The notes below the pieces were generated by a model. The model was not told the origin of the DNA and ran no database searches. It worked only from the letters and a program-made list of their open reading frames with translations. This document shows positions 58,337-62,033 of a DNA stretch of 64,000 nucleotides, piece after piece; positions within the stretch are counted from its first letter, which is position 1; the number at the start of each line of letters is the position of its first letter. This stretch comes from Salinibacter pepae (GTDB lineage: Bacteria; Bacteroidota; Rhodothermia; Rhodothermales; Salinibacteraceae): contig NZ_CAMTTE010000001.1 of the NCBI RefSeq assembly GCF_947077775.1, positions 310,001 through 374,000 on the forward strand. Reading direction: 5' to 3'. Both the position numbers and the translations under genes were made by a program.

Positions 58337-59575
58337 TCATCCGGACGCCGTGCCGCCGAGGGTTCCGGATTTCGCCTGCTCGATGAAGGTGTTCAGGCAC
58401 TTCTGGGTGCGAGACTCTACAAAGTGCCCATTGATCAGTACCGTCGGGGTGCTGTCGACCCCAACCTTCACGGCCCGCTTCCGCTGCTGAAGGACCTGAT
58501 TCCGATACTCGTTCTGCTCCACCCGTTCGCTCAGCACACTGGGGTCGAGGTCAATCTCGTTCGCGATGGCCCGGAGGTCCTGCATTCCGATGCCGCCCGG
58601 TCCCTGGCGCGCGTACTGCGCCTCCAGCATCTCGTTAAACTTGTCGGACTGGGCCGCCACGTACAGGGCCTGGATCTCCGGCAGCGACGAGCGACGGAGC
58701 GGGAACGGCTTGTAGACAAACCGCACCTCGTCGCGGTGGGCCTCCACCACCTGCTTCATGACCTGGTGAAAGTCTTTGCAGTGGGGACAGTTTGGATCAA
58801 AGTACTCGATGACCGTCACCCCCGCTTCGTTGCTGCCCGCGGTGATGTCCTGAAAGCCGACGAGGGAGGCCCCCTGGTCCTGCAACGGCGTCTTCGAGTC
58901 GTCGAGGTCGCACTGGGCCGGGGCGGCCGACTCGGACGCGGAGCGGGGCTGCGGGGCCGCTGCACTCGTCTCGTCGAAGTAGACAAGATCCATCCCGACG
59001 AGGACGGCCGCGGCGGCGGCGCAGTAGACGAAAAGGGCGACCTGCCGTTTTACGAGTCGAGACGACATGGAATTAGGAGGGGCTGTTGGTGAGGAAGCAA
59101 GCAGGGCAACCTGTCCTGCAAACAGGAGGGTCGTGATCAGGGCCGATCCCAAACACAGAAGGCACAGGGCCTTCAGGGGCCCAAACTGGAGGTACGTGAG
59201 GTACGCCGAGTACGCAATCCCGCCCGTGAGCAGACCGATTCGGGCCCCGTGGATCCATGCTCGCACCCTCGGCACGACCCAGAAGACGGCGACGGTGAGC
59301 ACGCCGACCATCCCATAAAACCCGAGCCCCCAGGTTGTGTTGGGCACCCCCAGGAGTTCGCTTCCCGCCCCGGCGGTTACCGCCGCGCAGTCGAAGATGG
59401 ACGAACCGCCCCCGAGCGCGGAGCCCCCGAGGCATCCATTCTCGAAGGTCCTGGCCTGCTGGATCAAGAGGTGCACGACGTCGAGAACCCCCAACAGGGA
59501 AAGCCCAAACACCACAGCCTCCAGGCGCGGACGGTATCCCCGCAGCCGTTCGCGAAGAGTCTGCACCAGAGGCAT
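58337..59575 (-). CDS. VKOR-DsbA fusion protein (disulfide bond formation)
   Basis: A 412-residue membrane protein combining both halves of an oxidative folding system. The N-terminal VKOR domain (about 1-160) has four to five helices, with cysteines in ENGCLGG and SSIFDCAAV for the outer pair and CLLC as the active CxxC. A fifth helix at about 180-195 precedes an extracytoplasmic thioredoxin-like domain (about 235-400) with the DsbA-type active site CPHC in DPNCPHCKDF and cis-Pro in STPTVLING. VKOR reoxidises the DsbA part and passes electrons to quinone. ATG 59575 gives MPLVQTLRERL. It is divergent from the trp operon. Confidence 0.88.
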   Translation of the reverse strand: MPLVQTLRERLRGYRPRLEAVVFGLSLLGVLDVVHLLIQQARTFENGCLGGSALGGGSSIFDCAAVTAGAGSELLGVPNTTWGLGFYGMVGVLTVAVFWVVPRVRAWIHGARIGLLTGGIAYSAYLTYLQFGPLKALCLLCLGSALITTLLFAGQVALLASSPTAPPNSMSSRLVKRQVALFVYCAAAAAVLVGMDLVYFDETSAAAPQPRSASESAAPAQCDLDDSKTPLQDQGASLVGFQDITAGSNEAGVTVIEYFDPNCPHCKDFHQVMKQVVEAHRDEVRFVYKPFPLRRSSLPEIQALYVAAQSDKFNEMLEAQYARQGPGGIGMQDLRAIANEIDLDPSVLSERVEQNEYRNQVLQQRKRAVKVGVDSTPTVLINGHFVESRTQKCLNTFIEQAKSGTLGGTASG

Positions 59576-59763
59576 GGCCGCTTGGATTGGGGTCGGGATT
59601 GGGGGTCCGTAGAACCAAAACTTGAGCCCACTGCAGGTTCCTCCCTCCCCGCGCAACGGATCCTGGCCGGGCAGGGCCCCTGCCGCCCGCCCGCCGATCC
59701 TCCAATTGAATTTCAAACCGTTCCCGTTGCGAATGGTGATTCTGGGTGGTACTCTGTGGCTGT

Positions 59764-59847
59764 ATGATTGACAAAAGCGGCACCACATCCTTCGGCTGGT
59801 GGCTCTGGCGGCCTTCCCTACGGGTCGAGAGCCCCCTGCGTGCCTGA
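59764..59847 (+). CDS. trpL: trp leader peptide (attenuation control peptide)
   Basis: A 27-codon ORF from ATG 59764 to TGA 59845-59847, 89 bp before trpE. Codons 12, 13 and 15 are TGG, TGG and TGG (Trp-Trp-Leu-Trp), a density highly unlikely by chance in a short ORF placed just before trpE. Its translation would sense charged tRNA-Trp: stalling at 59797-59808 frees the downstream RNA to form the antiterminator. No Shine-Dalgarno is visible, in line with other genes here. The peptide itself is probably not functional. Confidence 0.88.
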   Translation: MIDKSGTTSFGWWLWRPSLRVESPLRA

Positions 59848-59916
59848 CTGCTGTGCACTGCCCCTCGTACTGAATGGCTCTGGACCCGCTGCCAATTGGT
59901 GGCGGGTTTTTGTTTT
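59797..59916 (+). promoter_or_regulatory. trp transcription attenuator
   Basis: Three mutually exclusive RNA helices can be read. (1) GGCTCT 59801-59806, on the Trp codons, pairs with AGAGCC 59828-59833. (2) The antiterminator pairs CGGGTCGAGAGCC (59821-59833) with GGCTCTGGACCCG (59876-59888), 12 of 13 positions, one internal mismatch. (3) The terminator hairpin 59884-59893 with 59898-59907. Helix 2 uses the first five bases of helix 3, so they exclude one another. Ribosome stalling at the Trp codons would block helix 1, favour helix 2 and let transcription continue into trpE; with ample Trp the ribosome reaches the stop, covers 59821-59833, and helix 3 ends transcription. Confidence 0.88.
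59884..59916 (+). terminator. Rho-independent terminator of the trp attenuator
   Basis: ACCCGCTGCC (59884-59893) pairs with GGTGGCGGGT (59898-59907) through ten base pairs, two of them G-U, around an AATT loop. The run TTTTTGTTTT occupies 59907-59916. It ends 20 bp before the trpE ATG, the normal place for an attenuator. Confidence 0.9.
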
Positions 59917-59936
59917 GCCCCTTGTCTTCTCCACAC

Positions 59937-61553: not shown

Positions 61554-62033
61554 ATGCCGAACCCAATCAAAGAGGCCCTTCTCAACCGCGGCTGGGCCGG
61601 CCAGACGCTCAGCCGGTCCGAGACGGTCGACCGCATCGACCCACTCATCCGGCAGCACATTGAGCTGAACCACCACTACGGCGCCGCCATCCGCCACTGC
61701 GACGACGAGCGTGTCGTGGACGTGCTGGAGCGCCTCCAGAAGACCGCCCGCACCGACGTGGGCAAACTGTCCGAGACCGTCCTGAGCTGCGGCGGCACGC
61801 CGTACAACGGCACGGACCTCTCCCCCGAGGACTTTACGCTGAAGGGGTCGCTGAGCAAGCTCTTCGAGGAGCTCCACGACCTCGAGACGGCGTTCAACGA
61901 CGCCCTCGGGGCGGAGCTCGACCTCGAACACCAGATGCGGACCCGCGGGGTGCTCCAGGCAATCCGGAGCAACAGCCAGGACCGCCTCGACGCCCTCGAC
62001 GCCCTCCAACGACGCATCGGCAACGCGGCGTAG
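61554..62033 (+). CDS. Hypothetical helical protein in the trp operon
   Basis: A 159-residue acidic, all-helical protein with no signal peptide or membrane segment. Four amphipathic helices are plausible (about 5-35, 38-70, 90-118, 122-150), with HIELNHHYGAAIRHCDDE and KLSETVLSCGGTPYNG. The layout faintly recalls ferritin-like four-helix bundles of the DUF2383 type, which also carry a GG turn after the second helix, but no clear metal-binding set is seen. It lies between trpE (109-bp gap) and trpS (48-bp gap), so it is likely cotranscribed under Trp control. I do not assign a function. Confidence 0.7.
   Translation: MPNPIKEALLNRGWAGQTLSRSETVDRIDPLIRQHIELNHHYGAAIRHCDDERVVDVLERLQKTARTDVGKLSETVLSCGGTPYNGTDLSPEDFTLKGSLSKLFEELHDLETAFNDALGAELDLEHQMRTRGVLQAIRSNSQDRLDALDALQRRIGNAA

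Follow-up and report, generated by a model that had tools for sequence, protein, structure and literature searches.

In leaders of the Escherichia coli trpL type, a short open reading frame (ORF) with clustered Trp codons is followed by mutually exclusive antiterminator and terminator structures, with trpE downstream. Regulatory short ORFs may also lack a 5' untranslated region, as in the leaderless cysteine-responsive attenuators of mycobacteria. In Sinorhizobium meliloti, the leader transcript rnTrpL begins with the trpL ATG itself, and the leader attenuates trpE(G) (PMC7298713). In Bacteroidetes, the described motif is Bacteroid-trp (RF01692; Weinberg et al. 2010, PMC2864571), rated a likely cis-regulatory RNA as its table entry is understood; the main text of that paper, as far as it was available to us, yielded no description of a leader peptide.

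The window analysed here, a 64-kb stretch of Salinibacter DNA, carries a leader that resembles E. coli trpL in its clustered-Trp ORF, its exclusive antiterminator and terminator and the trpE gene downstream. We consider it very likely (probability about 0.85) that it controls the trp genes by ribosome-mediated transcription attenuation, with a leader peptide whose mRNA is leaderless or nearly so. The sequence-only reading had equated the design with that of the enterobacterial leader. It recognized the right kind of attenuator, but the equation was too strong: unlike in E. coli, a promoter-like site lies 8 nt from the leader ATG, apparently too near for a 5' UTR led by a Shine-Dalgarno (SD) sequence, no SD-like tetramer is present, the stop codon lies beyond segment 2, and the protector helix 1:2 is weakly conserved. 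The mycobacterial attenuators share the leaderless regulatory ORF but sense another amino acid in another lineage, and, unlike that of the alphaproteobacterium S. meliloti, the Salinibacter gene run takes in trpS and the other trp genes. A search of the open-access literature, with subscription journals outside its reach, returned no earlier description of a trp attenuator in Salinibacter or in the class Rhodothermia.

The trpE leader and its gene context

The leader peptide ORF (trpL, MIDKSGTTSFGWWLWRPSLRVESPLRA) occupies positions 59764-59847 of the plus strand, on which all leader and trp features lie. As had been read from the sequence, and as its translation confirms, it has 27 codons, of which numbers 12, 13 and 15 are TGG (59797-59802 and 59806-59808); the regulatory cluster TGG TGG CTC TGG thus spans 59797-59808. 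The stop codon (59845-59847) is 3' of segment 2, the 5' arm of the antiterminator (59821-59833). Segment 3 (59876-59888) is its 3' arm and overlaps the 5' arm of the intrinsic terminator (59882-59916), which consists of a hairpin at 59882-59909, made of segments 3 and 4, and a T tract running to 59916. Segments 2 and 3 pair at 12 of 13 positions, and GGCTCTGG is present twice, at 59801-59808 and 59876-59883. The terminator with its T tract, the 12 pairs of the antiterminator and the repeat had all been noticed in the sequence-only reading and hold good, as does the leader itself; its length, given as 174 bp, is 173 nt from the leader ATG (59764) to the trpE ATG (59937). The trpE leader was the sole match when both strands of the window were scanned for Trp-cluster ORFs with a strong terminator behind them.

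The gene run downstream is trpE-DUF2383-like-trpS-trpGDCFBA. It begins with trpE (anthranilate synthase component I, TIGR00564; 59937-61445), whose start is placed by conservation in relatives; the frame stays open further 5', through 59874-59936, as far as an ATG within the leader at 59874. Then follow the DUF2383-like ORF (61554-62033; 24.4 bits, under the Pfam cut-off of 30.8), trpS (tryptophan--tRNA ligase, TIGR00233; 62049-63116) and trpG (TIGR00566; 63241-63843). Past the window end come five putative genes, trpD, C, F, B and A, whose names rest on their translations and on gene order rather than on a family search. The arrangement trpE-orf-trpS-trpG-trpD-trpC recurs in four other genomes (G023, G029, G057 and G016), of which the last three share it as far as trpA. 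Divergent from the leader, on the minus strand at 58337-59578, lies a gene for a VKOR and DsbA/thioredoxin fusion protein.

Conservation and modelled switching of the competing helices

We examined trpE upstream regions of the same family and of a sample of the class Rhodothermia. This gave 51 Trp-cluster leaders from many families of the class, the Salinibacter leader counted in; an automatic rule supplied 45 of them, among which the ORF of L065 was then corrected by hand, and the other six were entered manually. The rule missed or misjudged some leaders; three of its picks (L022, L034 and L036) were discarded before the statistics, and L034 was entered again with a different ORF. As the start of each leader we took the most distal in-frame ATG no more than 15 codons from the Trp cluster. 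The 51 peptides have 17-32 residues and 2-5 Trp, mainly as WWW, WWxW or WWxWW.

Covariation was assessed in an alignment (A2) of 14 family-level sequences. All 14 have TGG at 59806-59808; 10 have it at 59797 and nine at 59800. In the antiterminator, 95.8% of the cells are paired and four pairs are changed on both sides, a result reached in none of 500 shuffles, although the rows are related by descent and the shuffle counts are therefore no probabilities; slid controls are at most 51% paired. The terminator is paired in 97.6% of cells, with mostly one-sided changes and covariation no higher than in shuffles (86/500). Segment 1 (GGCTCT, 59801-59806) pairs with 59828-59833 in the fold of the full leader, and to that extent the competing helix proposed earlier is present; its conservation is weak, with 77% of cells paired and no covariation above controls. 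The locus thus unites three features of a trp attenuator, namely a Trp-cluster ORF, an intrinsic terminator before trpE and an exclusive antiterminator with compensatory changes. Classical trp attenuation, as first claimed for this DNA, is well supported by this comparison, since in the aligned leaders TGG codons have been kept and antiterminator pairs have changed in compensation, where the absence of both had been named as one ground for abandoning the claim.

The minimum-energy fold of the full leader contains helix 1:2 and the terminator, with a z-score of -1.5. Fold energy alone is thus unremarkable, and the case for an attenuator rests on comparison. When the stretch 5' of 59822 is deleted, the minimum-energy fold becomes the antiterminator (z -2.9); the 2:3 stretch folded alone gives z -3.6. 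The modest stability of the full leader would also suit a simple terminator, or a leader bound by a protein or a ligand (riboswitch, T-box, TRAP-like), in which the Trp ORF is incidental. This is highly improbable, given that the Trp cluster is retained while neighbouring codons vary. Moreover, the sole Rfam family reaching its gathering score in the window is a distant tRNA, and neither that scan nor an E-value scan of the leader returned a match to the Trp_leader model or to any T-box or riboswitch model.

Switching was then modelled in all 51 leaders. In 37 of them, segment 2 outdoes its shuffled versions in pairing with segment 3 (p<=0.05; mean z -2.7), the antiterminator duplex not being significant in the other 14. 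In equilibrium folding the terminator usually dominates, and its probability falls below 0.3 at any stall position in just 16 of the 51 leaders; in the Salinibacter leader it drops from 0.93 to 0.04 with a ribosome at the third Trp codon. Because this dominance makes the equilibrium test weak, a nascent-RNA version was made afterwards, in which the RNA extends up to the terminator loop, the ribosome footprint is assumed to extend 13 nt from the start of the A-site codon, and the score is the sequestration of the terminator 5' arm. On average over the 51 leaders, this arm is sequestered to 0.75 with the ribosome on the Trp codons, taking the best stall position of each leader, to 0.21 with the ribosome at the stop codon, where no leader exceeds 0.6, and to 0.60 without a ribosome. 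The corresponding values for the Salinibacter leader are 0.74, 0.06 and 0.91, so that its untranslated and stalled RNAs are poorly separated. Because the stop codon is situated past segment 2, a ribosome halted on it should overlie part of that segment, and in these models the two states appear to be separated by the stop-codon ribosome over segment 2 more than by the 1:2 protector.

The promoter-like site and the start of the leader

Upstream of the Salinibacter leader, consensus matching predicts a -35-like hexamer, TTGCGA (59727-59732), and, 17 nt after it, a -10-like hexamer, TACTCT (59750-59755), which ends 8 nt before the leader ATG. In each of the 51 leaders, the 60 nt upstream of the ATG were scored for the best TTGACA/TATAAT-like pair with a spacer of 16-18 nt. 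In 48 leaders the distance from the end of the best -10-like site to the ATG is 6-10 nt, whereas mononucleotide letter shuffles, in which 5-10 nt was counted, give a mean of 7.2 and a maximum of 15 of 51 in 200 runs; these counts come from consensus scoring, in related genomes, with an ATG picked by a distance rule. An SD-like tetramer occurs in six of the 51 leaders, and none was found before the Salinibacter ORF. Transcription typically starts 6-9 nt after the -10 element. A -10 site ending 6-10 nt before the ATG would thus place the 5' end of the RNA at the ATG or within a few nucleotides of it, and the mRNA of the leader peptide is probably leaderless or nearly so. This fits the report that Salinibacter ruber and Rhodothermus marinus are without SD sequences and without the usual Bacteroidetes start-site logo (PMC3155529). 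Upstream of the -35-like hexamer, at 59709-59719, Salinibacter-type leaders have a AATTTCAAACC block in common, which resembles TTTTTCAA of f2 genomes; an UP element or an operator are candidate roles for it.

The same attenuator could have an ordinary 5' UTR if the RNA in fact came from a promoter farther upstream, the -10-like site close to the ATG being coincidental or secondary. Consensus promoters are indeed weak evidence, and the transcription start is itself predicted; in one member of the class (L063), a purine-rich AAAGGGG stands upstream and the best site is at 15 nt. In eight of 13 sampled Bacteroid-trp leaders, 16-20 nt separate the TAnnTTTG element from the ATG. We nevertheless regard an ordinary 5' UTR as unlikely, with about 7 sites expected at the short distance against the 48 found, and with so few SD-like tetramers. 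In the remaining five Bacteroid-trp leaders (L077, L078, L084, L086 and L087), the TAnnTTTG element lies 4-7 nt before the ATG, and these may also be leaderless.

A leaderless or nearly leaderless attenuator would work as follows. Transcription would start at or within a few nucleotides of the ATG at 59764, and a ribosome would load on the 5' end of the RNA and translate 11 codons up to the Trp cluster, in coupling with the polymerase. When charged tRNA-Trp is scarce, it would stall there, and segment 2 would pair with segment 3 before segment 4 is synthesized; the antiterminator would block the terminator, allowing trpE-orf-trpS-trpGDCFBA to be transcribed, presumably as one transcript. When tryptophan is ample, the ribosome would reach the stop codon and cover part of segment 2, leaving segment 3 free, so that the terminator could form.

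In addition to attenuation in cis, and compatible with it, the terminated leader RNA or the peptide might act in trans, as is reported for rnTrpL and peTrpL of Sinorhizobium. The inferred leaderless layout is the same as that of S. meliloti trpL (PMC7298713), but the peptide is very variable between genera outside the Trp cluster, so that no conserved trans-acting peptide is apparent, and we hold such a function to be quite improbable.

Distribution in Rhodothermia and relation to known leaders

The leader is absent or reduced at 13 other loci examined in the class. No recognizable leader and terminator precede trpE in six genomes of family f7 (L036, L038, L039, L040, L042 and L047), and no leader was seen upstream of trpE in L037, L054, L055 and L060. 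Also counted among the 13 is L061, in which the upstream region was read and the leader is not clear-cut. The sequence of L020 is cut by a contig end, and the upstream regions of L021 and L023 are partial or ambiguous. Two f3 genomes, L058 and L059, have a leader ORF with a single Trp codon and have kept a terminator-like hairpin (MVKHYISSVVNWQSLLTT; MVKHYISPVVNWQRLPTT); these are perhaps decaying attenuators. Comparable his or leu/ilv leaders were found neither directly upstream of hisG and HMGL-like genes nor in the surrounding 37 kb, a search in which not all operon heads were identified, and a plasmid search returned nothing.

The Bacteroid-trp covariance model has no match in the Salinibacter genome or in the sampled genomes of the same class; it matches 13 of 148 sampled genomes, all in one family. 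All 13 of these members have a WWW ORF and, after it, a terminator-like hairpin, a layout similar to that of the Salinibacter leader, and they belong to the same GTDB phylum. The principle is thus already known from E. coli trpL, from the leaderless trpL of Sinorhizobium and from Bacteroid-trp. What is new, judging from the sequences, is probably the leaderless or nearly leaderless start across 48 of the 51 leaders of the class. That a leaderless trp attenuator was already present in the ancestor of Rhodothermia, with its sensor ORF translated from the nascent 5' end without SD pairing and tied to transcription from the first bases, we consider about as likely as not.

With these leaders, and on covariation evidence, the range of textbook attenuation is extended to Rhodothermia, in which they escape the Rfam models. 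They suggest that leaderless initiation may be the route that attenuation takes where SD sites are absent. The gene for tryptophanyl-tRNA synthetase, trpS, lies downstream of a switch that would sense the charging of tRNA-Trp; if true, this would constitute a testable feedback.
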